Source of the DNA: a candidate division WOR-3 bacterium
GTDB taxonomy: Bacteria; Hydrothermota; Tepidihabitantia; SM23-42; JAOAFX01
NCBI GenBank assembly: GCA_039802005.1
Contig: JBDRVV010000002.1
Coordinates: 1-64,000, forward strand
Direction of reading: 5' to 3'
DNA: 64,000 nucleotides
Notes under the pieces: generated by a model
Seen by the model: only the letters and a program-made list of their open reading frames with translations
Databases searched by the model: none
What the model was told of the DNA's origin: nothing
Shown: in pieces, positions 2,158 to 61,959 of the stretch
Numbering within the stretch: the first letter of the stretch is position 1
How the letters are laid out: each line of letters begins with the position of its first letter
Made by a program: the position numbers and the translations under genes

Positions 2158-2982
2158 TTATCCATATTTCTCACACTCATAAAAACTTAAAGACCTTCTT
2201 TCTTCAGTTATATATATGTGCCGGCGGGTAAGAAGATTCTGCCAGTCAACAGTGTGGCCATCAAATTCCGGACCATCAACACAGGCAAACTTTGTCTCGC
2301 CATTTATTATCACACGACAGACCCCACACATTCCTGTTGCATCAATCATAATTGGATTTAATCCCACAATCGTCTTTATCCCGAAAGGTTTGGTAGTTTG
2401 AGAAACAAGGTATGTAAGATATGTGCAACCCTGGGCGTAGACCATATCCACGCTATACTTTGAAAGATAATCATTCAAAAATTTATCAATATGTCCAGCA
2501 TAACCCTTTGTCCCATCACGGGTTATCTCAAAAATTTCATCACTATATTCTTTCAACTTTTCCTGCCAGTAAAGCAGAAAACTGCTCCTTGCCTCAATCG
2601 CGGTAATGATTTTGTTATTATTATTTTTGAACGCCTTTATTACAGGATAAATAGCACCAATCCCATAACAACCACCAATCACAAGAATTTTTTTATCGCT
2701 AACCATTTCGGTTGGTTTACCCAGTGGTCCAGCAAGGTCAGCAATTGTCTCTCCTGTTTTCAAACAACCAAGTTTTCTTGTTGATGTTCCAACTTCCATA
2801 AATACAACACTTGCTGAACGTTCATCCCAGTCAACAAGATTCAATGGTATACGCTCACCAAATTCATCCGCACGGACAACAACAAACTCGCCAGCCTTTG
2901 CGTTCAAGTGGATAAAATCAGATTCAAGAATCATAAAATGGATATTAGGGACAAGCAATTCTTTTTTTAATATTTTAACCAT
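2158..2982 (-). CDS. NfnA-like ferredoxin reductase subunit (FAD/NAD-binding, 2Fe-2S)
   Basis: 274 residues, matching NfnA/sulfide dehydrogenase beta/PyrK-type reductases. An N-terminal FAD-binding barrel is followed by an NAD-binding fold (ILVIGGCYGIGAIYPVIKAF, about residues 98-117). The C-terminal 2Fe-2S loop reads GMCGVCRV with a distant FACVDGPEFDGHTVDW, which is the usual signature of this family. In Nfn this subunit handles NAD(H) and passes electrons to the FAD of NfnB. The start has a good Shine-Dalgarno (AAGGTG, 5 bp spacing). It lies between nuoG and nfnB homologues, separated from each by short repeat-containing spacers. Confidence 0.85.
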   Translation of the reverse strand: MVKILKKELLVPNIHFMILESDFIHLNAKAGEFVVVRADEFGERIPLNLVDWDERSASVVFMEVGTSTRKLGCLKTGETIADLAGPLGKPTEMVSDKKILVIGGCYGIGAIYPVIKAFKNNNNKIITAIEARSSFLLYWQEKLKEYSDEIFEITRDGTKGYAGHIDKFLNDYLSKYSVDMVYAQGCTYLTYLVSQTTKPFGIKTIVGLNPIMIDATGMCGVCRVIINGETKFACVDGPEFDGHTVDWQNLLTRRHIYITEERRSLSFYECEKYG

Positions 2983-3017
2983 AAATCACCTTGCAACCAA
3001 TAATGCAACAGCATTTT

Positions 3018-3040
3018 GCAGAGTAAACTCTGCCACTACA
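3018..3040 (-). repeat. REP-like hairpin, GTAG foot
   Basis: On the minus strand TGTAG is followed by a perfect 7-bp stem, GCAGAGT/ACTCTGC, with a 2-base loop. It has the same build as elements at 22256, 26958, 36703 and 44132. It sits in the nuoG-nfnA spacer. Confidence 0.6.
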
Positions 3041-3077
3041 TTGCAATATTTATTCGTTCGACTAAAGATAGACGCCA

Positions 3078-3113
3078 CATTTAGGTATTTAGGCATTTTG
3101 GAATTTAGGTATT
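3078..3113 (-). repeat. Short-word repeat after nuoG stop
   Basis: Second copy of the 'ATTTAGGTATTTAGGCATTTTGG' word repeat, placed immediately after the nuoG stop codon as the 2104-2157 copy is after nfnA. Confidence 0.6.
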
Positions 3114-5303: not shown

Positions 5304-5382
5304 ATTAACAATTCACCTCATCGTCCAACTAAGGACGTAACGAGTTTCCAAACCGTATAACTCAAAACGATTGACATTCTTT

Positions 5383-7212
5383 TCATATTGCCGGTGTCAC
5401 CTTCTTTACTGCATTGAATTTGGGTGGACATACAGAAAGACATATTCCGCACTTTATACATTTTGATTGATCAATCTTGTGAACCTTCTTTGGTTCACCC
5501 GAAATTGCCTTTGTCGGACAGTTCTTTGCACAGGCAACGCAACCAGTGCATAAATCCGGGTCAATCACATAAGAGATGAGTGCCTTGCAAACAAGTGCCG
5601 GGCACTTCTTTTCTTTAATATGGGCAATATATTCATTTTTAAAATATTTTATTGTGGTCAAGACTGGATTGGGCGCGGTCTGCCCAAGACCACATAGAGA
5701 ACCGAGTTTTACATTCTTGCCTATTGCCTCAAGTAATTCAATATCATTCTCCTTACCCTGTCCTTCAACTATACGATTCAGGATCTCAACCATTTGTTTT
5801 GTTCCGAGTCGGCATGGAACACACTTTCCACATGATTCCTGCTGGGTAAAATTCAAAAAGTACCTTGCCACATCTACCATACAGGTATCTTCATCCATCA
5901 CAATCATACCGCCTGAACCCATCATTGAACCGACGGCAGTGAGACTCTCGTAGTCAATAGGTAAGTCAAGATGTTCTTTTGGAATACAACCTCCGGATGG
6001 TCCACCGGTCTGAACTGCCTTGAATGCCTTATTATTAGGTATCCCGCCACCGATATCATAAATGATTTCGCGCAGGGTTATTCCCATTGGAACTTCAACC
6101 AATCCGGTATTGTTTATCTTGCCCACAAGGGAAAATATCTTCGTTCCCTTGCTATTCTCTGTTCCAATAGAAGCAAACCAATCAGCACCCCTAAGGATTA
6201 TCACGGGCACATTTGCCCAGGTTTCTACATTATTAATATTCGTGGGTTTTCCCCACAATCCTTTTTCTACCGGATAAGGCGGCCTGGTCCTCGGTCTTCC
6301 CACCCTTCCTTCAATCGCCGCCATTAAAGCAGTCTCTTCGCCGCAGACAAATGCACCTGCTCCTTGAACAACATCAATATTAAAATTAAAACCAGTGCCT
6401 AAGATATCCTCACCAAGCAATCCATATTCAAGTGCCTGTTTAATAGCAATTTGAACCCTTTTTACCGCAAGGGGATATTCTTTTCGCACATAGATAAATC
6501 CTTTTTGGGCGCCAATTGCATAGGCACCAATAAGCATACCTTCAATCACCGAATGGGGGTCTGCCTCAAGAACACTTCTATCCATAAATGCACCGGGGTC
6601 ACCTTCGTCTCCGTTACAAATGATATACTTTGGATGTCCTTCTGCAGCACGGCATAATTCCCATTTTTTACCAGTAGGAAATCCTGCACCCCCCCTACCC
6701 CTTAATCCTGATTTTTTAATTTCCTCAATAACTTGCTCTGGCTTCATTGACGATAAGACCTTCTGGAGTGCCTGATAACCATCAAATGCAATATATTCTT
6801 CAATATTTTCCGGGTCAAGCCTGCCCCGATTACGCAAGACAATGAGCCGCTGGTGTTTGAAAAATCCGATATCTGACATTTTTGGAACGGGTAGCGCCTC
6901 TTTTTCTGGCACATACATCAATTTCTTTGCCGGTCTGCCTTTTATAAGGTGTTCCTCAACGAGGTATGGCACATCCTTCTCAGTAACCCTTTGATAAAAA
7001 ATTGAGTCAGGCTGGGCAATTACGATTGGGCCACGCTCACAAAATCCCTGACAGCCAGTCGCAATCACTCTAACCTCTTCCTGAAGCCCTCTTTTGGCAA
7101 TCTCTTTTTCCAGTGCCTCTTTGACAACAAATGAACGGTTTGAAACGCAACCGGTACCGGCACAGACAAGCAGGTCTAATCTAAAACCTTTAACCTTTAT
7201 CTTCTTTGGCAT
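5383..7212 (-). CDS. NuoF/HydB-type NADH-binding flavoprotein
   Basis: 609 residues with the full HndC/HydB layout. An N-terminal thioredoxin-like 2Fe-2S domain (CAGTGC ... CQGFC) is followed by the NADH/FMN domain (GLRGRGGAGFPTGKKWE, about residues 170-186), a 4Fe-4S site (ESCGKCVPCRLGT) and a C-terminal pair of 4Fe-4S motifs (CTGCVACAKNCP and CIKCGICLSVCP). NuoF of respiratory complex I lacks both terminal extensions, so this is the soluble, bifurcation-type form. It accepts or donates electrons at NAD(H). Its start overlaps the end of nuoE by 23 bp, indicating a coupled operon. Confidence 0.88.
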   Translation of the reverse strand: MPKKIKVKGFRLDLLVCAGTGCVSNRSFVVKEALEKEIAKRGLQEEVRVIATGCQGFCERGPIVIAQPDSIFYQRVTEKDVPYLVEEHLIKGRPAKKLMYVPEKEALPVPKMSDIGFFKHQRLIVLRNRGRLDPENIEEYIAFDGYQALQKVLSSMKPEQVIEEIKKSGLRGRGGAGFPTGKKWELCRAAEGHPKYIICNGDEGDPGAFMDRSVLEADPHSVIEGMLIGAYAIGAQKGFIYVRKEYPLAVKRVQIAIKQALEYGLLGEDILGTGFNFNIDVVQGAGAFVCGEETALMAAIEGRVGRPRTRPPYPVEKGLWGKPTNINNVETWANVPVIILRGADWFASIGTENSKGTKIFSLVGKINNTGLVEVPMGITLREIIYDIGGGIPNNKAFKAVQTGGPSGGCIPKEHLDLPIDYESLTAVGSMMGSGGMIVMDEDTCMVDVARYFLNFTQQESCGKCVPCRLGTKQMVEILNRIVEGQGKENDIELLEAIGKNVKLGSLCGLGQTAPNPVLTTIKYFKNEYIAHIKEKKCPALVCKALISYVIDPDLCTGCVACAKNCPTKAISGEPKKVHKIDQSKCIKCGICLSVCPPKFNAVKKVTPAI

Positions 7213-7746: not shown

Positions 7747-9213
7747 ATGAAGAAAATTATCACTATTTTAATTATGGTTTTAATAGTAGGTATCACGATT
7801 TTTCTGTTTTCAATAATCCCCGACCGTCCACGAAGTAATGAGTTAAAAGAAAATAACCCCGGAACTGTCAAAGAAATATCTGAAGAATGGCTCGGTATTT
7901 TTATTCAAGGACAAAGGGTTGGATATACCTTTACAAAGATTAAAAAACTTGATAGAGGTTTAGAAATTGAAACCAACAGTCAAATGACTATAAATATGAT
8001 GAATGAAATAACGACCCTTAAAACCCAGATATTTGCCACTGCCGATACTGATTATGCCCTTACGGATTTCTCGCTTTTTATAAATGCTAAAGGGCACGAA
8101 TCAAAGATAGAAGGTAATATAAAAAATAATAAACTCATACTTACTACATATTCTCAAGGCATAAAACAAACCCAGGTCAAAGAAATTAAAGAGAAACCTT
8201 ATATTCCTGATGTGATCGATTTAATTGTGCAAAAAAAGGATCTAAAGCCCGGCACCGAAATAACCCTTCCGTATTTTGATCCAACAAGTCAATCAACAGG
8301 AAAGGCAAAAATAAAGGTCTATCCCGAAGAAAAGGTAATGGTTTTAAATAAAGAAACCCGAGGCAAAAAGATCGAAATAAATTTTATGGGCGTGGTTTCA
8401 TATGTATGGCTTGATGAAAACAATAAGATAATAAAAAATGAGACCCCTAATCTATTTATGGAAATGATCCCCATGACCAAAGATGAAGCACTTAAAGAAG
8501 TTAAACCCCAGGAGGCATTTGACCTGTTGAGTTTCTTCTCAATAAAACTATCCAAACCTTTACCAGAAGACAGGAAAATATCTTTTGTAAAACTCAAACT
8601 AACAGGTATTTCGGTTGAAGGGTTAGACCTTAATGATGATTTCCAAAAAGTAGTTTCTGAAGAACCTCTGATTATAGAAATATCACTCGCTGATATTAAT
8701 TCTTTGAAAGATTTAACAGTGCCAATTGCCGAATATAAGGAATTTCTATCGCCTTCGGCATATATTCAGTGTGAGCATCAAGATATTATCAAAGCAGCAA
8801 AAGAAATAGCTGGAAAAGAAAAATCTGCGCTTAATATAATAAAAAAGGTCACCAACGGAGTCTATAGAATGCTGAAAAAAGTCCCTACGCCTTCAATGCC
8901 CTCAGCAATTGATGTACTTAAGACAAAAGAAGGCGACTGTAATGAACATTCAATTCTCTTTACTGCATTTTCAAGGGCTCTTGGGATACCAACGAAAGTT
9001 TATGTTGGGTTAGTAAATCTTCAGGGAGATGCTTATTTCTATCATGCATGGTGTGCGGTATGGCTTGGACAATGGGTGCCGGTTGACCCCACATTCAACC
9101 AATTTCCGGCTGATGTATATCATTTAAAATTAAAAGAAGGCGAGATATCAGACTGGGCTGAAGTAATGAGGGTCGTGGGCAAACTCAAAATTGATGTATT
9201 AGAGTATCATTGA
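7747..9213 (+). CDS. Membrane-anchored transglutaminase-like protein
   Basis: 488 residues from the ATG at 7747. An N-terminal membrane anchor (MKKIITILIMVLIVGITIFL) is followed by a long beta-rich region of unknown function. The C-terminal transglutaminase-like domain carries the papain-type triad: Cys in EGDCNEHS, His in YHAWCAVW and Asp in VPVDPTFN. Such domains act as peptidases or amidases outside the cytoplasm. The orientation suggests an anchor with the catalytic part outside. The stop overlaps the ATG of an ABC ATPase by one base, so they share a transcript. The substrate is unknown. Confidence 0.8.
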   Translation: MKKIITILIMVLIVGITIFLFSIIPDRPRSNELKENNPGTVKEISEEWLGIFIQGQRVGYTFTKIKKLDRGLEIETNSQMTINMMNEITTLKTQIFATADTDYALTDFSLFINAKGHESKIEGNIKNNKLILTTYSQGIKQTQVKEIKEKPYIPDVIDLIVQKKDLKPGTEITLPYFDPTSQSTGKAKIKVYPEEKVMVLNKETRGKKIEINFMGVVSYVWLDENNKIIKNETPNLFMEMIPMTKDEALKEVKPQEAFDLLSFFSIKLSKPLPEDRKISFVKLKLTGISVEGLDLNDDFQKVVSEEPLIIEISLADINSLKDLTVPIAEYKEFLSPSAYIQCEHQDIIKAAKEIAGKEKSALNIIKKVTNGVYRMLKKVPTPSMPSAIDVLKTKEGDCNEHSILFTAFSRALGIPTKVYVGLVNLQGDAYFYHAWCAVWLGQWVPVDPTFNQFPADVYHLKLKEGEISDWAEVMRVVGKLKIDVLEYH

Positions 9214-9938
9214 TGAAAAGTCTTATTATAAAGAATCTGTCTAAAAGTTTTGATGGTATCTGGGCAGTTAGAAACTTAAGTCTTGGATTGAATAAAGGCG
9301 AAATCTTTGTCTTACTCGGACCGAATGGCGCGGGGAAGACCACGACCTTGAAACTAATTGCTGGGCTCCTCCATCCTGATTCCGGCGAAATCACATTGAA
9401 TGGTATTGATCTAAAAAAAGAGCCAATAAAATATAAATCCCTGCTCGGCTATGTTCCGGATGAACCATTTATCTACAATAAGTTAACTGGTAGAGAATTC
9501 ATAAATTTTGTTGCCGGACTATTTGGTATTAAAAAAGAACTTTATGATGAGAAACTAAACGCGCTAATCAGACGATTTGAAATTGGTGATTGGATTGATG
9601 AACCTTCAGAAACCTATTCCCACGGGATGAAACAAAAGATAATAATGTGCCAGTTACTGATGCACGACCCCGAATTGATTTTGATTGACGAACCACTCGT
9701 TGGGCTCGACCCCAAAATGAGTAAGATAGTGAGGGAAACATTTATTGAACTTGCCCACATTGGAAAAACACTCCTTGTTTCAACACACACCCTTCCATTT
9801 GCCCAACAGATTGCAAATCGTATAGGTATTATAAACAAAGGTGAATTAAAATTTGTAGGAACAACTGAAGAGCTTGCTGAAGTCTCCGGCAGGAAAGATA
9901 TTGAAGAAATATATTTGAAACTTACTGAAGAAATGTGA
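9213..9938 (+). CDS. ABC transporter ATP-binding protein
   Basis: 241 residues from the ATG at 9213; a TTG three bases upstream is also possible. It has Walker A GPNGAGKTT, a signature-like SHGMKQK, Walker B LILIDEP with VGLDP, and the switch His in STHT. The family is that of ABC-2/CcmA-like exporters. It overlaps the preceding transglutaminase gene by one base and the permease gene by four, forming a three-gene operon. The cargo cannot be told from sequence. Confidence 0.9.
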   Translation: MKSLIIKNLSKSFDGIWAVRNLSLGLNKGEIFVLLGPNGAGKTTTLKLIAGLLHPDSGEITLNGIDLKKEPIKYKSLLGYVPDEPFIYNKLTGREFINFVAGLFGIKKELYDEKLNALIRRFEIGDWIDEPSETYSHGMKQKIIMCQLLMHDPELILIDEPLVGLDPKMSKIVRETFIELAHIGKTLLVSTHTLPFAQQIANRIGIINKGELKFVGTTEELAEVSGRKDIEEIYLKLTEEM

Positions 9939-11590
9939 AGACCTTTTTCTCTTTATTCTGGGTTCGTCTGCGACTTTTATTCAAATATTTTACACCGCAG
10001 GAACATAAACTTCCCCGTATTACATTTTTTATTATTCTAATCGGATTTTTATCTGGTGGTTATTTTTTATTCTTCAGGATTTTCGCATACCTTGCTACAG
10101 TAGAAATTATCGGTCCTGCAATTATGGCACGAACAATTGAAATGATTCTATTTGTATTCTTTATAATGCTTCTTTTCAGTAATATTATAAGTTCATTTTC
10201 TACATTCTATAATAACCAAGAATTACATTTCCTTTTTTCACTTCCTGTCTTACCCACAACGATATACCTTGCTAAATTATTTGAAAATGCAATCTATGCT
10301 TCCTGGGCAACATTTGCAATAGCAATACCTTTGATACTCTCATACGGGGTCTCTAATAATGCTAATTTTATATTTTATCCTGTATCATTTTTTTGTTTTT
10401 TTGTTTTTCTAATCATTCCTTCAGCCCTATCTGCTGTAATAATATTCATATTTGTCATACTCTTCCCTAAATTTAAACCCAAGAATATAATATTTATTTC
10501 ACTATCTTTCATTTTCATATTGATCCTGCTTTATATCAAGATTGGAAATCCGGAGTTGTTGAGAATTTTTGAAACTGAGAATGAGAGAGAATTGCTTATG
10601 TTTGCTGCCAATCTTACGACCGTAGGAGGTATTTATGTTCCTTCAACCTGGTTGAGTAATATCTTCAAAAATTTCGTATCACCGAACCCCGCAGGTTATA
10701 TCTATATATTACTCTTGATATTTGTTGCATTGAGTTGCATTGCACTTTCATATATTATTGCCGAATCAATTTATCATAAATCATTCCTGCTCATTGCCGA
10801 ACATGGTGGTAAGGAAAATAAGAGAAAATCACTCCTTGCGGGATTTCAGAAAAATCCGATTCACGCTTTTTTATTTAAAGATATAATACTATTTGTGCGT
10901 GAACCAACCCAATGGGTTCAACTCGCTATATTTGTAATACTGCTTGTTGTCTATATCTTCTCATTACGCAGAACACCGATCTATTTTGGCTTTTCATTAT
11001 GGCGTACAATCGTTTCCTTTGCAAACTTTGCCTATGTGAGCTTTGTCATTGCAACATTAGGGGTAAGATTTATCTTTCCGGCGATGAGCCTGGAAAAAAA
11101 AGGAATTTGGATTATAAAAACTTCACCTTTCAGTCTGACTAAGGTTATTTTTACAAAATATGTCTTTTATGGTTTGCTCGGGATTATACTGATAGAATCT
11201 TTGCTTTTCTTCGCAAATTTTTTTATAAAAACCGAACCCATAATATTTTACTTCTCACTCTTTATAGGATTTTTCGTATCCCTGTCTTTGGTATCAATAA
11301 ACCTTGGTATGGGTTGTATTTTTCCCCAATTCAACGAAGACAACCCATCAAAAATTGCCTCGGGTAGCGGAGGAATTATTTCTGCATTAACAAGCATTGC
11401 GTATATTGCAATAGTAATAATTATTTTCGCTGCTCCAGTGCACAACTATTTAACTAGTCACTATTTCGGAAGAGCACTAAATCTAAAAATAATCATCACT
11501 TCTTTTTTAACATTCGCCATTTTGAATTTCGCTACAATTTATCTACCAATAAGGTTGGGCATAACATCAATGAACAAAAGGGATTTTTGA
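9935..11590 (+). CDS. ABC-2-type transporter permease, putative
   Basis: 551 residues from a GTG start that overlaps the ATPase stop codon (ATGTGA). The protein is very hydrophobic with about a dozen predicted membrane segments (for example around residues 28-50, 65-90, 115-140, 150-200, 330-350 and 420-450) and is rich in Phe/Ile/Leu. No soluble domain is seen. Its position behind the ATPase makes it the membrane part of the exporter. It may be a large ABC-2 permease that works as a homodimer. Confidence 0.75.
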   Translation: MKTFFSLFWVRLRLLFKYFTPQEHKLPRITFFIILIGFLSGGYFLFFRIFAYLATVEIIGPAIMARTIEMILFVFFIMLLFSNIISSFSTFYNNQELHFLFSLPVLPTTIYLAKLFENAIYASWATFAIAIPLILSYGVSNNANFIFYPVSFFCFFVFLIIPSALSAVIIFIFVILFPKFKPKNIIFISLSFIFILILLYIKIGNPELLRIFETENERELLMFAANLTTVGGIYVPSTWLSNIFKNFVSPNPAGYIYILLLIFVALSCIALSYIIAESIYHKSFLLIAEHGGKENKRKSLLAGFQKNPIHAFLFKDIILFVREPTQWVQLAIFVILLVVYIFSLRRTPIYFGFSLWRTIVSFANFAYVSFVIATLGVRFIFPAMSLEKKGIWIIKTSPFSLTKVIFTKYVFYGLLGIILIESLLFFANFFIKTEPIIFYFSLFIGFFVSLSLVSINLGMGCIFPQFNEDNPSKIASGSGGIISALTSIAYIAIVIIIFAAPVHNYLTSHYFGRALNLKIIITSFLTFAILNFATIYLPIRLGITSMNKRDF

Positions 11591-49898: not shown

Positions 49899-51245
49899 TT
49901 AAAATACTACAAATTTTTTCGTAAAACTTTCTCTTCTATCAGGATAAAATTTAATAAAATAGCATCCTTTCACAAATTTGGGTAATTCTATGACTGAAGA
50001 GCAAATATCACTTTTCTCAAAGACTTTTCTACCGAGGGCATCAAAGATTTCAATTTTATTATATCTCTCTCTGTTTCCAAGGTTAAATTGGATTCTTTTG
50101 CCTGACGGGAAGATAGTAGGTGAATTCTGATTATTCAATGCAATATCTCGGTTTTCTTCAACCGCTACATTCAATGGGGTGTATCTGAATGCGGATAATC
50201 TTGTGCCACCTGCATAACCCCATCTTGAATTGAACATATCCATTCCCAATGGTGAACAACCCCAGGGACTGTTATCAAATATCACAGTATCCACAAACCA
50301 TTGATTTCCACCATTGGTCGTTTTTAAGAAGATACTAAAATGGCTTCCCTGCCAACCGGCACGATTACCGCCGCCAACGGCAAATCCATTCTGATTATCA
50401 ACAAATTCAATCGCATATAAGCCATATTTACCAATGGATACCGATGGTCCCATTACTTCAACCCAATTGTTTCCGCCATCGGTTGTTCTGAAGAAAATTC
50501 CGGGTGATGCAGAATCCCTTAATCCGCAGACCCAGCCATTGAGGTTATCAATAAAATGGACACCAAAGAATTCATAAGGTGCATTTGAAATCTGGGCAGT
50601 CCAGTTCGTCCCGCCATTTGTTGTATGGAGAATCAGGCCATTTATTCCCTGCTGATTTATTGTGTCATAATCACCACCCACAATCCAGCCCTCATTTGGG
50701 TTTATAAAATATATGCTTTTCAACGACCCAGACACCGGGGCACCCTGGGTAGTCCAGGAAGAACCACCGTTGGTTGTTTTTCTAATATCGCTGTTTGCAC
50801 CGGCAATCCACCCGGTGTTCGCGTCAAGGAAGAATACATCATCCCACATCTTACCGATGAATTCAAAAGTCAAACCATAGATATTCGTCCAGGAATTACC
50901 ACCATCAGTAGTTTTGTAAACAACTGCTGCGGGAAAGAGATTAGCTATTATCCCCATTGCCGTGAGATAACCGGTACTGGTATTGACAAAATCCATTCCG
51001 AAGACAAACATACACTGGTTTATAGTCCAGGGACGAATTTCCTGCCAGGTATTACCACCATCTGTCGTTTTATAAATAATTCCCCCCACCTGGTCCCTTA
51101 CACCGCAAAGAATTCCGATGAGTGAATCAGGTGTTGCAGTATCCAGAAATCCGTTATCCGTCGCCTCATAATGACGTGTTTCCCATCTTGATACCCCCAA
51201 AAGAAACCATACAGCAACACAATATACTATAATAACTCTCTTCAC
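49899..51245 (-). CDS. Ycf48/BNR-repeat exported protein with T9SS sorting domain
   Basis: 448 residues from a GTG start with AAAGGAGG upstream. A signal-like N-terminus (MKRVIIVYCVAVWFLLGV) is followed by six or more BNR/Ycf48-type blades of the form 'YKTTDGGNTWQEI ... DANTGWIAG', a seven-bladed propeller. The C-terminal T9SS sorting domain contains KIEIFDALGRKVFEK and GCYFIKFYP. In other organisms such propellers bind glycans or assist protein assembly; here I infer only a secreted or surface-bound scaffold. Divergent from the chimeric regulator gene. Confidence 0.85.
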   Translation of the reverse strand: MKRVIIVYCVAVWFLLGVSRWETRHYEATDNGFLDTATPDSLIGILCGVRDQVGGIIYKTTDGGNTWQEIRPWTINQCMFVFGMDFVNTSTGYLTAMGIIANLFPAAVVYKTTDGGNSWTNIYGLTFEFIGKMWDDVFFLDANTGWIAGANSDIRKTTNGGSSWTTQGAPVSGSLKSIYFINPNEGWIVGGDYDTINQQGINGLILHTTNGGTNWTAQISNAPYEFFGVHFIDNLNGWVCGLRDSASPGIFFRTTDGGNNWVEVMGPSVSIGKYGLYAIEFVDNQNGFAVGGGNRAGWQGSHFSIFLKTTNGGNQWFVDTVIFDNSPWGCSPLGMDMFNSRWGYAGGTRLSAFRYTPLNVAVEENRDIALNNQNSPTIFPSGKRIQFNLGNRERYNKIEIFDALGRKVFEKSDICSSVIELPKFVKGCYFIKFYPDRRESFTKKFVVF

Positions 51246-51290
51246 AGTTCCTCCTTTCTATACCTAAATTATTTTTCCCACCCTTATATT

Positions 51291-51319
51291 ATTTTAATTA
51301 TAATGCTATAACTTGTCAA
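51291..51319 (-). promoter_or_regulatory. Promoter of the Ycf48-like gene
   Basis: Minus strand TTGACA, 17 bp, TAAAAT, with a leader of about 40 bases. Confidence 0.5.
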
Positions 51320-51417
51320 TTCTCAATTATTATATAATTAACTGTGTGTCACTTTTTTATCGCTATTGCTGAATAAAGTATTTAAATACCAGTAATTAAC
51401 GATATCTGTAATTAATA

Positions 51418-51446
51418 TTGACGCAATAAAAAATTTTTGTTATAAT
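51418..51446 (+). promoter_or_regulatory. Promoter of the chimeric regulator gene
   Basis: TTGACG, 17 bp, TATAAT, then 10 bp to the ATG at 51457; no Shine-Dalgarno. Confidence 0.65.
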
Positions 51447-51456
51447 ATTCCCGCAA

Positions 51457-53694
51457 ATGGCTAACAGAAAGTTAGAATTTAAAAAAACCGTCATTGAGCA
51501 TTATCTGAAAAATGGTTCTATAAGAAAGACCGCAAAAAATTTTGGAATTCACTATCAAACTCTTTACCGCTGGCTAAAAATTTATAAAAAATTAAAAGAC
51601 CGATTCTTTATAACGACTTACAAAACGCCGTGGAACAGAACGACTAATGAATTGGAAAAAGATATTATATCTTTAAAAGAACAGAACCCAACTATTACAA
51701 TAAAAAATGCCCAGGATATCTTGAGAAAGAAAGGGGTTAAAATCTCCCACCATACGATTTGGTCAATATGGAATAGATACGGTTACGCAGGGTCGACAAA
51801 ACTGGATTTAGGAAGAGAATACGGAGAATCCCGCGGATGGACAAATGAAGCACAAAAAAAATTTGCATTAGCATCGAATTTATTTGACGATGGTAATATT
51901 AAAGAAGCAGCAAGGGTATTGAACACCATCCCATTTTTACCTAAAAATGAATTACTGACCAAAATCCCGGACAGATTTTTGAATCTCCACAGGCGCCTTG
52001 AAAAAAGTATTTACCTTTTTGGAAAGATTCCTATAGTAGAAAATTTAAAGAAATTAGATAAATACTATCACGAAGCAAAGAAAAGAAGGTTATCATATTT
52101 AGCAATACGTGCCGGTCTAGTAGAGATAGCGTTACTCTCCTGGAAAGGCGACCTGTTAACCCAGCAAAAAATTTTAAATGAATTAAAAGCCATTTTTAAG
52201 ATTAAAAGAAAAAGATTTGCGATTACGGAATTCAATCTTTTCTTCACACTCCTAATCGCCGAAGGTAATTTTTATATAGATCTTTTCAAAATTGATCGGG
52301 CATATCATATCGCCAGAAACTGTCATTTAAGCCTTATGCGTCGGAAAAATCCAGACGCCAACTTAATATTACACCTTGCCAGACTCTATGTCCGCCTTGG
52401 TGAAATCAAAAAGGCTGAATACTGGTATCAAAAAGCCCTTATGCAGATGTCTGATGATATGAAGAGAGAGTTAAATGCCCAGTTAGCACTGAATATTTAT
52501 TTTATGAAAGGTGAATATAAAAATGCAATGGAATTGTGTAAAGACATAAATCTGCCCGAATGGATTCGCACCGCTCTCCCTTTAAGGTTTAAAAGTCTTT
52601 ACTATTTAATCAAAGGAAATCCCAATCTGGCAATAGAAACTGCGACCAAAAGTTTGAATCTGTCAAAAGAACAGGAATTACCCCGCGATATATTTAATGC
52701 ATATTTGACAATTGCTGCAGCATTTAATACTATGAATGAAAAAAATAAAGCAATTATTATTTTAAGAAATTTAAAAAGATATATCAAAAAATTTAAGTTA
52801 AAGGTCCAGGAAAAAATGCTCCAGATAATTCTTGAAGGAGATCGGAATTGGGGCGAAGAGTATAAATTACCAATTTTGCGGATAGGAGTACTTTTAAGAA
52901 ATAACCGATATCAGCAGGCACTAAATTTGGCGAAAAAAAAGGGATTAATTACAATCTTTTATCGTTATATACTTTTTATTCCTCAATCTGTATTAAGTCT
53001 ACTGGCTAAAGGCAAAAATACCAGATTACCAAAATCAATCTTAAAACTTCCGATATTCAATCAGAATACAATAACCTTTTATATAAAATTTATTGGAAAG
53101 CTAACCATCACAAGAAATCAAAAATTTATTAAAACCAAATTGAAACCAAAGGATGCGGCGCTATTAATCCATCTGAGTCTTAAATTAAATAATCCCGAGA
53201 GTTTTATCCATCTTGACGATTTGTGCAAAAATTTCTGGCATAATCAAACTACCGCACACAGGAATTTATCCCATGCATTAAACAGATTAAAAAAGCAATT
53301 AAACATTCCTGGTCATTATCTTGAAATGGGCTATGATTCAGGAATTCCCTGCCTAAAAAACAGAAATTTATTCTTCACAACTGATTATCAGGATATATTA
53401 CGGTCATTATCTCAGGCAAAAGCCCTGGAACGTGCAGGCGAGTGGGAATTTGCTAAAAACGAATACATAAAGGCTTTCTCATTATTCCGGGGTGAACCAT
53501 TGAAAAAGAACTTTGACCAATGGTCGGTTGATTTAAGATATAAGATTTTATCCCAGCTGGAAGTTGAAGGTGTTAATTTTGCCCGCAATTGCCTCGCCTA
53601 TGGTAATAAAATTGAGGCGCGTAGAATTCTTAAACGGGTCTTAAAAATTATCCCTGATTCTGCAGAAGCAAAAAAACTATTTGCAACTTTATAA
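51457..53694 (+). CDS. Chimeric regulator: transposase-like HTHs, TPR array, SARP/BTAD end
   Basis: 745 residues. Residues 1-45 form a homeodomain-like HTH of the IS3/IS630 kind (GSIRKTAKNFGIHYQTLYRW). Residues 62-112 form a second HTH as in IS630/winged transposases (KKGVKISHHTIWSIWNRYG). There is no DDE catalytic domain. Residues about 130-500 are TPR-like helical hairpins (LARLYVRLGEIKKAEYWYQK). Residues about 540-625 look like an OmpR-type winged helix (LKPKDAALLIHLSLKL). The end (about 640-745) is like the bacterial transcriptional activator domain of SARP/LuxR-MalT-type regulators (AKALERAGEWEFAKNEYIKA, EARRILKRVLKIIPDS). Probably a DNA-binding regulator responding through its TPR part. 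Targets unknown; divergent from a T9SS cargo gene. Domain calls are from pattern reading only. Confidence 0.7.
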   Translation: MANRKLEFKKTVIEHYLKNGSIRKTAKNFGIHYQTLYRWLKIYKKLKDRFFITTYKTPWNRTTNELEKDIISLKEQNPTITIKNAQDILRKKGVKISHHTIWSIWNRYGYAGSTKLDLGREYGESRGWTNEAQKKFALASNLFDDGNIKEAARVLNTIPFLPKNELLTKIPDRFLNLHRRLEKSIYLFGKIPIVENLKKLDKYYHEAKKRRLSYLAIRAGLVEIALLSWKGDLLTQQKILNELKAIFKIKRKRFAITEFNLFFTLLIAEGNFYIDLFKIDRAYHIARNCHLSLMRRKNPDANLILHLARLYVRLGEIKKAEYWYQKALMQMSDDMKRELNAQLALNIYFMKGEYKNAMELCKDINLPEWIRTALPLRFKSLYYLIKGNPNLAIETATKSLNLSKEQELPRDIFNAYLTIAAAFNTMNEKNKAIIILRNLKRYIKKFKLKVQEKMLQIILEGDRNWGEEYKLPILRIGVLLRNNRYQQALNLAKKKGLITIFYRYILFIPQSVLSLLAKGKNTRLPKSILKLPIFNQNTITFYIKFIGKLTITRNQKFIKTKLKPKDAALLIHLSLKLNNPESFIHLDDLCKNFWHNQTTAHRNLSHALNRLKKQLNIPGHYLEMGYDSGIPCLKNRNLFFTTDYQDILRSLSQAKALERAGEWEFAKNEYIKAFSLFRGEPLKKNFDQWSVDLRYKILSQLEVEGVNFARNCLAYGNKIEARRILKRVLKIIPDSAEAKKLFATL

Positions 53695-54673: not shown

Positions 54674-56533
54674 ATGGCTTTACTTGAAAAGATAAACAAA
54701 CCTGATGATTTAAAAAAATATTCAGTGGAACAACTCCAGATTCTTGCAAAAGAAATTAGAGAAGAAATTTTAAAAACTGTAGCCAACAACGGCGGGCATT
54801 TAGCCCCATCATTAGGAGTTGTTGAACTTACTCTTGCTATTTATCGGGTATTTGATGGTGAAAAAGATAAAATTATCTGGGATGTAGGACATCAAACATA
54901 TGCTCAAAAATTGATAACAGGCCGGAGGGAACTATTCTCAACTTTACGAACTTACAAAGGGATAAGTGGATTTCCAAAAAGGGAAGAATCAAAATATGAC
55001 CATTTCAATACCGGACATTCATCAACCTCTTTATCTGCTGCTGCAGGTTTTGCTATTGCAAGAGACTTTAGAAAGGAAAATTATCATATCATAAGCATAA
55101 TCGGAGATGGTTCGCTTGGTGCAGGTATGGCATTTGAAGCACTGAATTACATCGGACAATTGAAAAAAGATGTCATTGTAATTCTGAACGATAATGAAAG
55201 GTCAATCGGCGAAAGTGTTGGAGCCTTATCGCAGTATCTCACCAAGATAATTACCACAAGAACATATAACAGATTCCGTGATGACTTATGGGTATTTTTA
55301 GGCAAATTTCCGCCGTATATCAGGGATCGCGCAAGGAATTTCGCAAAAAGAATACAGGAAGGTATGAAAGGTTTATACTCACCTTCAGTTATATTTGAAG
55401 AACTTGGTTTCAGGTATATCGGACCACTAAATGGGCATAAACTAAACGAACTCATTGATACATTCTCAAGGATAAAAGAGATGCGGGGACCACGATTAGT
55501 CCACGTAGTAACAAAAAAAGGAAAAGGGTATAAAATAGCGGAAGAATCGCCAGAAAGATTTCATGGTATAGCACCGTTTGACATAAATACTGGCATAGAG
55601 AAACATAAATCCAACTCATACACAAACGTTTTCGGTAACGCAATTGTAAAATTCGCTGAGGAAAATAAAAAAATTGTTGCCATTACGGCTGGTATGTGTC
55701 TGGGCACAGGTCTGAAGGATTTTTCATTAAAATTTCCCGAACGATTCTTTGATGTCGGAATTTGTGAACAACATGGAGTCACTATGGCAGCGGCACTTGC
55801 ACTTGAAGGTTATATCCCAGTATGTGCAATATATTCAACTTTTCTCCAGCGGGCATATGACCAGATTATCCATGATGTCTGTCTGCAAAATGCACCGGTG
55901 ATATTCGCAATTGACCGTGCCGGACTTGTTGGGGAAGATGGGCCAACCCATCATGGACCTTTTGATTTATCTTATCTTAATTGCATCCCCAATATCATAA
56001 TAAGTGCACCCAAAAACGGCACAGAACTGGTTTCTCTTTTAAAAACTGCGATAGAATATCGTAAGGGACCCTTTGCAATCCGTTATCCTCGCGGCAATTG
56101 TGTTCAACCAGTAAATTATAACATTCCAACGGTAGAAATTGGTAAATGGGAAATTTTAAATCAGGGTAAGGATTTTGCAATAATTGCCTGCGGTTCAACT
56201 GTCCAAACGTGTAGTGAAGTATTATCTTTATTGCAAAAAAATAAAATGAATCCATTTTTAATAAATGCCCGATTCGTTAAACCACTTGATTACGAACTAA
56301 TTGATAAACTCAGTAGAGATTTGAAAACAATATTTATCGTTGAAGAAAACACTTTTTTAGGTGGATTGGGAAGCACAATCGCAGTATATCTATCAAATAA
56401 AAATTCAAAAATAAAGATTTATACGATCTCCCTGCCCGACAAATTTATTCCCCACGGTGCACGAAATATTTTACTCAATGCGGTCGGTCTTGACACCCAT
56501 TCCATTGCGGATAAAATTATCAAGTTGTTATGA
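54674..56533 (+). CDS. dxs: 1-deoxy-D-xylulose-5-phosphate synthase
   Basis: 619 residues, usual length. TPP-binding motif GDGSLGAGMAFEALNY (about residues 152-167) with NDNERSIGESVGALS, then the transketolase pyrimidine domain (GICEQHGVTMAAALALEG, DRAGLVGEDGPTHHG) and C-terminal domain. It condenses pyruvate and glyceraldehyde 3-phosphate in the first step of the MEP pathway, whose last enzyme IspH is at 11.6 kb. No Shine-Dalgarno. The stop overlaps the sprA start by 4 bp (ATGA), coupling isoprenoid synthesis to the secretion gene. Confidence 0.95.
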   Translation: MALLEKINKPDDLKKYSVEQLQILAKEIREEILKTVANNGGHLAPSLGVVELTLAIYRVFDGEKDKIIWDVGHQTYAQKLITGRRELFSTLRTYKGISGFPKREESKYDHFNTGHSSTSLSAAAGFAIARDFRKENYHIISIIGDGSLGAGMAFEALNYIGQLKKDVIVILNDNERSIGESVGALSQYLTKIITTRTYNRFRDDLWVFLGKFPPYIRDRARNFAKRIQEGMKGLYSPSVIFEELGFRYIGPLNGHKLNELIDTFSRIKEMRGPRLVHVVTKKGKGYKIAEESPERFHGIAPFDINTGIEKHKSNSYTNVFGNAIVKFAEENKKIVAITAGMCLGTGLKDFSLKFPERFFDVGICEQHGVTMAAALALEGYIPVCAIYSTFLQRAYDQIIHDVCLQNAPVIFAIDRAGLVGEDGPTHHGPFDLSYLNCIPNIIISAPKNGTELVSLLKTAIEYRKGPFAIRYPRGNCVQPVNYNIPTVEIGKWEILNQGKDFAIIACGSTVQTCSEVLSLLQKNKMNPFLINARFVKPLDYELIDKLSRDLKTIFIVEENTFLGGLGSTIAVYLSNKNSKIKIYTISLPDKFIPHGARNILLNAVGLDTHSIADKIIKLL

Positions 56534-59500
56534 ATTTATTCTTAATTCTTTTAATAAACCAGTTTACCCTGCCCTATGAGATTAAAACATTTGTTACTTC
56601 AGATATTCAGTATATAATATACACAAGATTTTATCAGGGGGAGTTAATCAGTATTGACAGCATTGTGCCCTTGCCCACCTATCTTTCTGCAGGATTAAAA
56701 AAGAAAAATCAGAAATTGCTGTTGAAAGAGCTCCAGAGCGATTTGATTAAAAAAGGTGGATATGCAAACAAAGGTTTGTTTGGCACTTTTGAAGTACCGC
56801 TACCCAAGGGTGGATTCAGCGATTTTATGGGCGAAACTGGTAAACTTGATGTAGGAGGATACATAAAGATAACCCTGGGTGGAACCGAGACCTTTTATTC
56901 AAATCTACCAGCAGACCAGCAAAGAACCTCACTCCTACCTGAGTTAAAGATGGAACAGGAAATGGCAGTTAACCTTGATGGCGAAGTTGGCGACCGTATG
57001 AAGGTATTCATTGACCATAATTCAACAAGGGTGGATGAAAATGAGAATAAAATTCGCGTAACCTACAAAGGCAAAGAAGATGAAATACTCCAAGAACTTG
57101 AAGGGGGTGATACACAACTTTCCATTCCCGGAACGAGTTATACTGGTGATATTCCATCCCATCAGGGGCTGTTTGGGCTTAAATCAACAGCAAAATTAGG
57201 ACCGGTTGATATTGTTGGAATTGCTTCAAGGGAACAGACCCAGTTCAGTGAACAGGAAATAACCGGCGGGGCAGAAAGTATGCCCGATACAATCTGGGCA
57301 AGGGATTACCAGAAAAGACAATTTTTCTGGCTTGGGACCAGTGATTCAATCATTGAACTCCGTGTTTATATTGATGACGGTAATCCAGCAAATAATAATA
57401 ATGGAATCACGCGCTATGCCTACGCATATCTTGATTTAAATGATGATAATATTCCGGATGACAGCCTCGAAAAAGAGGAAGGATTTTTTACTTTAAAATA
57501 CGAAGGGCCTGTCCAGGATTACCAATTTTTTGGAAGAAGAGTGAATATCATTGAATTGAAAAACAGTCTTTATAATAATATTGAGGCACTCGGCGTTTAT
57601 TATCGTAAAGTCAATAGTCAAGGCAAGGAAGATACTGTTGGTTTTATTGGTTCTGATACATTTAGATTAAAACTCATATGTCCGAGAACCTTTAGACCGA
57701 CATCACTCACCTGGAAATATTATGAATTAAAAAATTATTATCGTATTGGCGGTCCGGGTGGAATGGTTGATACAATCAGAATATATCACAATGTAGCCAA
57801 TGGTATTGATGAAGATATTTATCAAAACAGAACTTTATTATCCATACTCGGGCTTGATAATGATAATAATAATGTAGTGGACCCATACAATGGATATGGT
57901 GGATTTGATTTTAATCGTGGGCTCCTGATCTTCCCCGAGCCAACACCATTTGTCAACAACAATCTTCCTGAACCTGATTCCGAGGTATATACCAATCCCT
58001 ATTATTCAATTGGACCCGACAAATATTACATATATACAAAATCTGTTCAGGTAAAGCGTATCTTCAGCATTCCATTTAACACAAAAAGAGTAAGAGTCTA
58101 TATAAATGATGTTTTGATAGATTCAACCCAATATGTTGTGGATTACGAGGGTGGTAAACTTGAGTTTTTAAGACCGCTTTCAGTAACCGATAGAATCCGT
58201 ATCCAGGCAGAATATACAACATTATTCTCTGCTTCCCAGAAATCACTCATCGGGTTAAGGGCAAACTCAAAAATATTTGGAGAAGGAAATTTAGGTTCTT
58301 CTTTCTTCTATCGCACGGAATCTTATCAAACCGCACCCTATGAACATATAAGACTAAATGAAGAGCCATATAATCGCATGGTATGGGAGGCTGATTTTGC
58401 ATTACCCGGCAAGATTCCTTACTTAACAGAACTCATTGATAATCTACCACTGATAAAGACTGAAGCCGAATCAAAATTCAACATTAATTTTGAAGGTGCA
58501 TATTCATTCTCAAATATAAACTCACAAAATGCGGTATATCTGGATGATTTTGAAGCCACGACCATAAACCATTCTGTCGCTTTAACAAAAAATTACTGGC
58601 ATCTTTGTTCAAAACCAGTAAATCAGGATACTGGAAATTTTGCCAAAAAAAGGATAATCTGGTATAATCCACCAAGCAGAAATGTATTTAAAATGGAAGA
58701 CATTTACAATAATCCGACTGATCCAAAGGCAATTGCTGAAGTTCTGCAGATTCAATTCACCCCTGATAATCTCCAATCCTTTGCTGGATTAACTCAATAT
58801 ATCACAAACACCAACCTTGATGAATGCGAAAATATTGAGTTAATTGTAAACGGTACGGGTGGTAAAATTCACATAGAAATTGCTGAAGAAATCAGTGAAG
58901 ATCAATTGCGCAGAAATAAAAAAGGCGAACTCGTTGGTCTCAACACATTTGAAGACGAAGATAATGCACCAAGGAACTTTTCCTGGGATGCAGTCAACGA
59001 AGACAGGGGGCTTGATAATGTTGCGGGTAAAGATAACCAGAGTGTCAGTGGAGATGATGGAAATGATGATTATGTAGACGAGGATTATTCGGGTGGAATA
59101 AATGGAACTGAAGGAAATGGAATATGGGACACAGAAGATATAGACCGAAATGGAATATTCAACTTAAGTTCAAATATATACCATAGTTTTTCCGTGCATC
59201 TCGATTCAACACGATTTCTTGTTGAAGGAGGTCTAAAGGATGGCTGGAAGATGTTCCGCATTCCATTGAAAGATTCGTTGGCGCGCGATACTTCCTTTGG
59301 CACAATAAACTGGCAAAACATTAAGTTCGTTCGTATATGGTTTGACAATTTTTCCAAAACAGAAGTGATCTATATTCATAAATTGAGTTTGACTGGAAGC
59401 AGATGGAAAAATTATGGGATTGTAGCCAATGATTCTTTATATCCTGTTGATACAACAGAAAAATTTGTTATTACACCGGTTAATACTGGAACCCATACTT

Positions 59501-61959
59501 ACTATCGACCACCTTATCCACTTCCCATAGACCCTATCACAGGAAAGACAATAAATGAAGGTGGTTTAGAATTCAATTTACTGAATGTCAAAGAGAATCA
59601 TACCTGCATTGCCTATCGCAGGGTAGAAACGCAGGAGGATTACCGCGGTTATGATACATTGGTATTTTATTTTAGGACGCTACACTCAAATCCAGAAATT
59701 GCCCTGCGCTTTGGCTCGGATTCAAATTATTATGAATATAAAACTGATTATGAAACAGGGATATTGGGATACAATAATTGGCGAAAATACACAGTAATAT
59801 TGGCTAATTTTCCGGAATTGAAGAAAAAAACTGGTGGTATTGGTAAATTTACCGAAGGTTCTTATACTGTTTCTGGAAATCCGTCATTAGAAACAAATCG
59901 TTTTTTTGAAATCAGAATCACAAATAAATTTACTACCCCACTCACCGATACGATGTGGTTCAACGATATCAAACTTACATCTCCTAAATATGAAATTGGT
60001 AGAATCTTCAGATCAAATGGCTCCCTAAATATTGCTGATTTATCAAGCATAATATTTGCTTATTCTGAATCAAACGGCAAATTCAAAAGATTATCAGAAT
60101 CTAAAAATATTTCAACATCCGGTCCAGGCAGAAATTATGGTATAAATTCTACGATTTCACTTGATAAAATTCTCCCCACAACCTGGGGCTTCAGTATTCC
60201 TTTGGGATTGAGTTATAATAAAAATATTCAGGAACCGAGATACTCATCTACGATCGCATCGGATATTGAATTAGATGATTCAAGCCGTACATTGGAAAAA
60301 TCAATGAGCACGGTCCGCGGTTATAATATAAGTCTTTCAAAAACCGGTTCCAAAAACTGGTTGATGAAACAGACCCTGGATAACCTTAGATTTTCCAATG
60401 ACCGCACGATTAGCATTTCAAACGGTCCAAAAAATGCCGATACATCTGATTTAAGGAATTATCGTGGTGAATATAGTCTTGGACCGAAGGCATCAATTAG
60501 ATTCTTTAAGCAACAAATATCTCTTCTACCCCAGACAATCTCTTTTAGTTCACTATATACAGAAAATTTGATAAAATCATATCGTCGCGATAGTCTAAAT
60601 CAACCATTTAATACGAGTCCTGGTTATCCCCAGCATCGCAAGACACTTACCCCATCGTTTTCCACAAGTTACTCGCCACACCAAATTCTATCAACATCGT
60701 ATAACTTTGCCCAAACAAGAGATTCGGTATCAGAGAAATGGCGTTTGGGTGAAGAAGTAAACCGTACCCAGACATTCAATAGTCGCATTTCAAAAGACTT
60801 GATACTTCTCAATCCGTCCTTACAATTTTCTGCGAATTACAACGAAGACCATAGATTTGAATTGCGTAAACCTTATGACCGAAGGGGAATTAACAACGCT
60901 TCCAATATAAGCATCTCGACAATCGCTGATATCAAAAAAGTGGTAAAATTTTTAACCCACCTGCGCGATGAATCAAAAGACAGTCTGCAGATCCCCGGCT
61001 CGCCGTTATGGGTCGTAAAACAGATTGAAACATTCGTTGACCTCATCCAGAATCCCAGCATAAGTTTCTCACGACAAAAATCGTCGGGTTATTATAGCAA
61101 ATTAAGACCGGATTTAAAGTATCAATTTGGTCTTGTTGATACAATTCCATCGGATCAAATTGATCCCAATAGTTACTCAAGCCGCAGTATAACCGATAAT
61201 TTTAGTGCAGGTTCGGGTATCAATTATAAGATATTTAGTTTGAATGGTAGTTACTCAAAACAAATTAATAGAAGTTTTGGTTATAGCGGTGATGAAAACA
61301 GAAGTGTGACTGAATCTTACCCGGGTGCAAACCTACGAATTTCAAGCGTAGAAAAAATTCCGATGCTCAAAAAGTATGCATACACATCGTCAATAAATAT
61401 AGGTTTAAACCAAAATTACATGAGACTCTACAGGGTCTCTCCCGACACAACTCCTGAATTAACATCGGATAGCAAAACCCTATCTTTCAACCCATTACTC
61501 GGTTGGCAGGTCAACTGGAAAAGAGGTATTACCACCAACGCAAATATTAATTACTCCGAAACTCAAAATCATCAATATTCAGATATGTTCATAAATCCTT
61601 CCAAATCTGTAAATTGGGGTGGCTCAATGTCTTTCGCTTATACATTTAGTGCACCAAAGGGAATATCCCTGCCGTTGCTTCGTGGTATAAGATTTACATC
61701 AAATCTTACAACAAACATAACATACAGTTACAACCGCAATACAAGTTACGCAGCATCAATAGAAAATCCAAACGACCTTGATATGGATAATCCAGTGGCT
61801 GATAATGAAAATAGTAATATTGATGTTTCATTTAGTTATAATTTTTCAACAAGCATTACCGGGGGAGCGAATCTGAATTATTCCCGTAATCAAGACCGGG
61901 TTTTTAATAATAGTTATCGAAGGGTAGGTCTAAATATATGGGCAAATATAAATTTTTAA
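56530..61959 (+). CDS. sprA: SprA-type T9SS outer-membrane translocon protein
   Basis: 1809 residues, smaller than Flavobacterium SprA but with its marks. Short leader (MNLFLILLIN, then Gln). The N-terminal region has GDTQLSIPGTSYTG (about 193-206). A conserved central block follows: MVWEADFALPGKIPYLTEL, then LPLIKTEAESKFNINFEGAY and VYLDDFEATT (about 617-680). Ca-binding-like Asp/Asn runs appear around 830-880. The C-terminal 600 residues alternate as barrel strands and end in a Phe (NINF). In Bacteroidota SprA/Sov forms the giant pore through which sorting-domain proteins leave. It overlaps dxs by 4 bp and the glutaminyl-cyclase-like gene by 22 bp. Identity rests on motif memory. Confidence 0.83.
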   Translation: MNLFLILLINQFTLPYEIKTFVTSDIQYIIYTRFYQGELISIDSIVPLPTYLSAGLKKKNQKLLLKELQSDLIKKGGYANKGLFGTFEVPLPKGGFSDFMGETGKLDVGGYIKITLGGTETFYSNLPADQQRTSLLPELKMEQEMAVNLDGEVGDRMKVFIDHNSTRVDENENKIRVTYKGKEDEILQELEGGDTQLSIPGTSYTGDIPSHQGLFGLKSTAKLGPVDIVGIASREQTQFSEQEITGGAESMPDTIWARDYQKRQFFWLGTSDSIIELRVYIDDGNPANNNNGITRYAYAYLDLNDDNIPDDSLEKEEGFFTLKYEGPVQDYQFFGRRVNIIELKNSLYNNIEALGVYYRKVNSQGKEDTVGFIGSDTFRLKLICPRTFRPTSLTWKYYELKNYYRIGGPGGMVDTIRIYHNVANGIDEDIYQNRTLLSILGLDNDNNNVVDPYNGYGGFDFNRGLLIFPEPTPFVNNNLPEPDSEVYTNPYYSIGPDKYYIYTKSVQVKRIFSIPFNTKRVRVYINDVLIDSTQYVVDYEGGKLEFLRPLSVTDRIRIQAEYTTLFSASQKSLIGLRANSKIFGEGNLGSSFFYRTESYQTAPYEHIRLNEEPYNRMVWEADFALPGKIPYLTELIDNLPLIKTEAESKFNINFEGAYSFSNINSQNAVYLDDFEATTINHSVALTKNYWHLCSKPVNQDTGNFAKKRIIWYNPPSRNVFKMEDIYNNPTDPKAIAEVLQIQFTPDNLQSFAGLTQYITNTNLDECENIELIVNGTGGKIHIEIAEEISEDQLRRNKKGELVGLNTFEDEDNAPRNFSWDAVNEDRGLDNVAGKDNQSVSGDDGNDDYVDEDYSGGINGTEGNGIWDTEDIDRNGIFNLSSNIYHSFSVHLDSTRFLVEGGLKDGWKMFRIPLKDSLARDTSFGTINWQNIKFVRIWFDNFSKTEVIYIHKLSLTGSRWKNYGIVANDSLYPVDTTEKFVITPVNTGTHTYYRPPYPLPIDPITGKTINEGGLEFNLLNVKENHTCIAYRRVETQEDYRGYDTLVFYFRTLHSNPEIALRFGSDSNYYEYKTDYETGILGYNNWRKYTVILANFPELKKKTGGIGKFTEGSYTVSGNPSLETNRFFEIRITNKFTTPLTDTMWFNDIKLTSPKYEIGRIFRSNGSLNIADLSSIIFAYSESNGKFKRLSESKNISTSGPGRNYGINSTISLDKILPTTWGFSIPLGLSYNKNIQEPRYSSTIASDIELDDSSRTLEKSMSTVRGYNISLSKTGSKNWLMKQTLDNLRFSNDRTISISNGPKNADTSDLRNYRGEYSLGPKASIRFFKQQISLLPQTISFSSLYTENLIKSYRRDSLNQPFNTSPGYPQHRKTLTPSFSTSYSPHQILSTSYNFAQTRDSVSEKWRLGEEVNRTQTFNSRISKDLILLNPSLQFSANYNEDHRFELRKPYDRRGINNASNISISTIADIKKVVKFLTHLRDESKDSLQIPGSPLWVVKQIETFVDLIQNPSISFSRQKSSGYYSKLRPDLKYQFGLVDTIPSDQIDPNSYSSRSITDNFSAGSGINYKIFSLNGSYSKQINRSFGYSGDENRSVTESYPGANLRISSVEKIPMLKKYAYTSSINIGLNQNYMRLYRVSPDTTPELTSDSKTLSFNPLLGWQVNWKRGITTNANINYSETQNHQYSDMFINPSKSVNWGGSMSFAYTFSAPKGISLPLLRGIRFTSNLTTNITYSYNRNTSYAASIENPNDLDMDNPVADNENSNIDVSFSYNFSTSITGGANLNYSRNQDRVFNNSYRRVGLNIWANINF

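Follow-up and report, generated by a model that had tools for sequence, protein, structure and literature searches.

What does a protein that begins like a transposase and ends like a SARP do beside the gene for a secreted protein? The question is raised by P0001, an intact 745-aa ORF on the plus strand of the window (the whole 64,000-nucleotide stretch of WOR-3 DNA analysed here), which runs from an ATG at 51457 to a stop at 53694. Another species of the genus has a 74%-identical orthologue, and dozens of full-length homologues at 30–42% identity keep the reading frame open throughout. These comparisons place the protein-coding nature of the gene beyond doubt. The first-pass annotation had read its product as a transposase-type double HTH, a TPR array and a winged helix with BTAD, in that order, and Pfam, NCBIfam and AlphaFold uphold both the parts and their arrangement. 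An AlphaFold model built on an alignment of 42 full-length homologues (A1; mean pLDDT 87) has two tri-helical HTHs (residues 6–46 and 64–107), a low-confidence linker (113–125), a helical array extending to about residue 530, and a mixed alpha/beta end. Both terminal parts are thus where the annotation had put them, an HTH within residues 1–112 and a winged helix and BTAD within 540–745. A single-sequence phmmer search of P0001 against the PDB returned TPR noise only.

The two HTHs occupy residues 6–110 (51472–51786, plus strand), with helices at 6–19, 22–28 and 33–46 and at 64–76, 82–91 and 98–107, and are homologous to the N-termini of IS481, IS3 and IS630 transposases according to Pfam, NCBIfam and AlphaFold. 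Residues 8–110 match the Pfam families HTH_28, HTH_23 and HTH_32, and residues 11–117 align with positions 4–114 of the IS481 transposase model (E 1.8e-11). When the N-terminal region was scanned separately in 47 homologues, IS481 was matched by all 47, IS630 by 46 and IS3 by 45. Matches of an N-terminal profile in the PDB include the DNA-binding domains of Sleeping Beauty and TnsB (E 0.006–0.008), and a resident IS481-like transposase of the same genome, complete with rve domain, has a homologous HTH pair. Pfam and NCBIfam find no DDE/rve catalytic domain in P0001, and the AlphaFold model has the helical array in its place. These matches demonstrate that the HTH pair is homologous to that of IS481-group transposases; the term domesticated transposase implies in addition a direction of descent, which we can only infer.

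The middle of the protein (residues ~130–530; 51844–53046, plus strand) is a TPR/helical array by Pfam and AlphaFold and is the fastest-diverging part of the family. Pfam TPR_MalT is found in 14 of 42 family members, and MalT domain III is among the fold matches. Since Foldseek with the whole model retrieved TPR solenoids only, the SARP end was modelled separately. Residues 528–745 alone were predicted with a pLDDT of 93.7, and the best PDB matches of this model, full length over ~206 columns, are the AfsR SARP (8k60, 8hvr; TM 0.72–0.73) and EmbR (2ff4, 2fez; TM 0.69–0.70). Because the model superposes on both over its full length, the prediction holds that the C-terminal 218 residues form a complete SARP module. 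An OmpR-type winged helix (residues 536–640; 53062–53376, plus strand), with its recognition helix at about residues 600–615 (R602, N603, H606, R610), is followed directly by a BTAD (residues 641–745; 53377–53691, plus strand), which is the order that defines the SARP family. By Pfam alone the BTAD is weak (residues 643–707, E 0.0058, about 17 bits); at E<0.01, BTAD is recognised in 24 and Trans_reg_C in 6 of 53 family members. No part of the regulator protein is more conserved than the BTAD.

The first-pass annotation had described a lone chimera. The protein is indeed chimeric, but it does not stand alone: a search for homologues of the same domain order, which that annotation had proposed, found a multi-copy WOR-3 family paired one-to-one with T9SS cargo genes. 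A contig scan with P0001 by itself gave no match, and an alignment-based scan gave matches. The genome of P0001 itself (G000, 2.54 Mb) has three full copies, one in the window and one each on contigs C14 and C47; contig C4 carries in addition an orphan 3' end. Matches occur in 21 of 61 relatives and 28 of 147 genomes of the phylum, with up to 11 matching stretches per genome, and at least 69 distinct long copies, up to about 10 per genome, could be collected from WOR-3 genomes, most of them mutually only 30–40% identical. Among GTDB representatives, scanned with one degenerate motif, all but the weakest matches fell in records titled WOR-3/Stahlbacteria or in MAGs labelled TA06, Cloacimonadota or Spirochaetales. 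Neither the family nor any regulation of T9SS cargo in WOR-3 turned up in the open-access literature that we searched, and the family is apparently an undescribed large regulator family of this uncultured phylum.

Comparison of the copies suggests that the family evolves modularly: the HTH and TPR parts vary from copy to copy and are at times transferred from one genome to another, while SARP ends are swapped or converted among the copies of a single genome. Mean identity within genomes is 67% for the BTAD and 32–33% for the TPR region, against 50% and 30% between genomes. By BTAD, 28 of 59 copies have their closest counterpart in their own genome, versus 5 of 60 by TPR (p 1e-6), so the BTAD is the part homogenised among same-genome copies. 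Nucleotide profiles break near residue 530, at the border of TPR array and winged helix, or inside the BTAD. For example, L035 (genome G013) matches L043 (G017) at about 95% identity as far as residue ~530 and at ~70% beyond it, and the 3' part of L035 is 90–93% identical over residues 541–620 to L034, a paralogue in its own genome; L041 and L042 show a similar breakpoint pattern. Identity falls from ~80–90% to 40–60% between L076 and L081, which belong to different genomes, and climbs from 35–48% to 98% between L057 and L058 of G001. Orphan, non-coding 3' ends are 84–92% identical to intact copies. One of the orphans, a BTAD 3' end on C4 of G000 (L055, ~115–118.6 kb), occupies the position at which contig C10 of G001 (~23–44 kb) carries three cargo-regulator units in a 20-kb array; the flanks are syntenic on both sides. 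The empty site in G000 consists of this orphan and a small gene pair, one member of which looks AbiEii-like by eye. Because of the breakpoints, the orphan 3' ends and the presence or absence of the array, the sequences support gene conversion or recombination anchored in the coding sequence of the SARP end.

An in-frame insertion in the BTAD (EIRQKKRRTPSAKCRGGNM or nearly so) was also seen at the same place in three paralogues of G017 (L042 at 4641–6923; L046 at 2701–5013 and 8054–10363), with a shorter insertion similar to it in L018 (G023). The shared insertion would be another sign of copying between copies.

The likeness of BTADs within a genome could instead come solely from selection for a fit to the host RNA polymerase, without recombination. 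The BTAD of AfsR does contact sigma R4, the beta flap and the alpha-CTD (PMC10936776), and the likeness of four-fold sites in the BTAD is only modestly higher within genomes (0.44) than between them (0.36). Such selection is nonetheless a rather unlikely sole cause, given breakpoints that are sharp at the DNA level (L035/L043/L034 and L057/L058) and orphan ends that are non-coding and still close to intact copies, although it may add to the likeness of the SARP ends. Assembly error is an unlikely source of chimeras at 70–90% identity, though it might play a part in the contig-end copies L035 and L041. We tentatively offer, as a possibility that we would not yet favour, that the units are portable cassettes in which the cargo, the divergent promoter and the 5' part of the regulator (DNA reading and sensing) are exchanged together, and recombination in the winged helix or BTAD fuses the incoming regulator to a host-adapted SARP end. 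If so, this would be a surface-variation system that works by swapping the output domains of transcription factors. The chimeric copies themselves offer natural evidence that a sensing and targeting half and a polymerase-contacting half evolve as separate, exchangeable modules.

Opposite P0001, on the minus strand, lies a gene for a 448-aa beta-propeller-like (Ycf48/BNR-type) secreted protein with a T9SS type A sorting domain (49899–51245). Its TIGR04183 match exceeds the model's cut-off, which confirms the divergent T9SS cargo gene that the first reading had named. The 211-bp spacer between the two genes (51246–51456) holds both promoters, and a block around an ACACA motif within it is conserved in the genus orthologue. 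Across the family, 64 of the 65 copies that have an upstream neighbour are transcribed divergently from it, across a median gap of 149 bp. TIGR04183 is matched at E<0.001 by 45 of 53 complete upstream proteins versus 17 of 51 downstream neighbours (Fisher p 1e-7); the background in G000 is 132 such matches in 2.54 Mb. Pairing with T9SS cargo is the rule of this regulator family. The cargo proteins are diverse and include beta-propellers and subtilases among others. Over all pairs, cargo similarity shows almost zero rank correlation with regulator similarity in any domain (0.04–0.07), and a clear match of the two is limited to close pairs.

Several features of the surroundings deserve mention. 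With 132 sorting-domain matches, the predicted T9SS secretome of G000 is large for a non-Bacteroidota genome. The T9SS outer-membrane translocon gene sprA/sov (TIGR04189, 323 bits) lies at 56530–61959, 2.8 kb downstream of the regulator, with prenyl diphosphate synthase and dxs genes in between. Proteins downstream of two other regulators (L034:329–3640 and L051:2371–6030) have, by eye, GGDEF-like starts (DLTGLYNRR/H), and the C-terminus of the L051 protein looks BTAD-like, also by eye.

The cargo promoter, on the minus strand of the spacer, has a -10 hexamer (TATAAT, 51329–51334) and no -35; an ACACA box (51343–51347) stands 8 bp from the -10 (whole element 51329–51347). SARP sites likewise place their 3' repeat 8 bp from the -10 (PMC10936776). 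When all 5-mers were counted without bias, at all spacings, ahead of TATAAT-like hexamers in 58 spacers, ACACA at exactly 8 bp was the top combination, present in 22 spacers from 12 genomes; in 100 dinucleotide shuffles the best combination of any kind reached 7. The relaxed form ACA[CT][ATC] is found 8 bp from the -10 in 34 of the 58 spacers and at any other spacing in at most 9, and a TTGACA-like -35 occurs in only 1 of 21 boxed cargo promoters. ACACA-N8-TATAAT occurs twice in G000, once in this spacer on the cargo strand and once inside a coding ORF on C29. The remaining 24 spacers have no recognisable ACA[CT][ATC] box at 8 bp, so their regulators would recognise different sequences or work in another way. 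Scanned by lag for direct and inverted repeats, the spacers gave no clear signal at SARP spacings: direct repeats show no significant excess at the classical 11 or 22 bp and, anchored on the box, a weak maximum at 10. Some of the promoters share a GG-TTT element ~31 bp upstream of their ACACA box; we do not claim this element as a signal.

Residues of the predicted recognition helix follow the box. In counts that ignore kinship, R602 is found in 21 of 22 regulators of boxed genes versus 15 of 36 unboxed, N603 in 20 of 22 versus 13 of 36, and R610 in 21 of 22 versus 16 of 36. No column of the N-terminal HTHs is associated with the box at p<1e-4; associated columns do occur in the TPR region, where kinship is likewise ignored. 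At the level of sequence, the winged-helix recognition helix is shown to co-vary with the ACACA box. Because of the SARP fold, the box that replaces the -35 at 8 bp from the -10, this co-variation and the pairing with T9SS cargo, we put at roughly three in four the probability that P0001 is a local SARP-type transcriptional activator dedicated to its divergent T9SS cargo gene. The winged helix would bind the ACACA box and the BTAD would, as in AfsR, contact RNA polymerase at its sigma region 4, beta flap and alpha-CTD, so that cargo transcription is switched on; the sign of regulation is proposed by analogy with SARPs. The TPR array, set between two DNA-binding ends, is likely to be the part that senses a signal or binds a partner.

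The regulator has a promoter of its own, and the suggestion that it is nearly leaderless is plausible. TTGACG (51418–51423) and TATAAT (51441–51446) are separated by 17 bp on the plus strand, the -10 ends 10 nt before the ATG, and the promoter is conserved in the genus orthologue. Transcription is therefore predicted to start within a few nucleotides of the ATG, i.e., to be leaderless. Under a strict test (a near-consensus promoter with the -10 ending 3–13 nt before the start codon), 41 of 67 family genes qualify versus 41 of 365 other ORFs at the same loci. Promoters that look leaderless are thus also found outside the family. The share of about 11% among other ORFs in these WOR-3 loci suggests that leaderless transcription may be common in the phylum. 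A TTCC-like (TTTCC-like) element follows the -10 in 31 of the 41 family promoters, in the window as ATTCCC, and is absent from the background list.

The HTH pair would most likely tether the protein to another site within this spacer, and the simplest guess is autoregulation of the leaderless regulator promoter. Taken further, the protein could be a repressor or mainly an autoregulator whose HTH pair holds the divergent spacer closed, with a SARP end that serves dimerisation only or is vestigial. The enrichment of near-consensus start-proximal promoters, the family-specific element after the -10 as a plausible repressor site, and an HTH pair that is well conserved across the family all fit this possibility. 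We consider it unlikely, because the cargo promoter carries a SARP box in place of its -35, which points to activation, and because the most conserved part of the protein can hardly be vestigial. It is also conceivable that the units are mobile or selfish elements whose N-terminal HTHs still recognise element ends and whose cargo is a passenger. The family is multi-copy, the three-unit array is present in one species of the genus and absent from another, whose empty site has an orphan 3' end, and further orphan 3' ends occur elsewhere. In G013, REP-like or palindromic repeats between genes, among them GCGTCAGCAAGCTGACGC, share up to 99% identity (L038:6561–6790 and copies) and lie beside many cargo-regulator units. 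The same repeats, however, also occur away from the units, and terminal repeats common to the family were not found. The protein has no nuclease or recombinase domain, the plasmids and viral contigs searched contained no regulator homologue, and copies mostly 30–40% identical are not recent transpositions, all of which makes this explanation very improbable. That the pairing is incidental, with both kinds of gene accumulating in the same variable regions, is the least credible reading: the sorting domains of downstream neighbours (17/51) are also above the genome average, but the excess upstream over downstream, the near-universal divergence and the cargo-side promoter box all speak against it.

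The local-activator reading sets P0001 beside several known systems. With IS481, IS3 and IS630 transposases it has the HTH-HTH region in common, but it lacks their DDE/rve domain and is fused to TPR and SARP parts. With MalT/LAL regulators it shares a MalT-like TPR region; unlike them, the family has no NTPase domain or LuxR-type C-terminal HTH recognised in Pfam scans. Large SARPs begin with the SARP module, followed by NB-ARC and then TPR (PMC10972967, PMC10936776). P0001 resembles the large SARPs of Streptomyces (AfsR, PolY) in its OmpR-type winged helix and BTAD fold, in the 8-bp spacing from box to -10 and in having TPRs in the same protein. It differs from them in that its module is C-terminal (residues 536–745 of 745), in lacking NB-ARC/NOD, in its additional N-terminal transposase-type HTH pair, in the absence of a clear 11-bp direct repeat, and in serving secreted-protein genes rather than antibiotic clusters. 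The reversed order alone is not new, because four other G000 proteins carry a BTAD at their extreme C-terminus behind TPRs (L151:1445–3787, L152:272–3556, L153:2466–5861 and L154:1420–3570). Two of them start with an AAA_16 ATPase. They share with P0001 the TPR array and the terminal BTAD, but have an N-terminal AAA ATPase or nothing recognised where P0001 has its HTH pair, and their full-length BTADs score 70–100 bits against about 17 bits. Of the new architecture envisaged by the first-pass annotation, the C-terminal SARP placement therefore falls away, and the transposase-type HTH pair at the other end, which we found nowhere else, stands. In the open-access literature we found no description of an IS481-type HTH pair combined with a SARP, of dedication to T9SS cargo or of such module exchange. 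We regard the family as a variant of SARP-type regulators, one that would work like a SARP but does not have the module at the N-terminus, where the usual definition places it. SARP-type output is familiar chiefly from actinomycetes, where it activates antibiotic clusters; the family described here would extend it to an uncultured phylum, in which each regulator would control a single type IX secreted protein through a predicted operator at a constant position.
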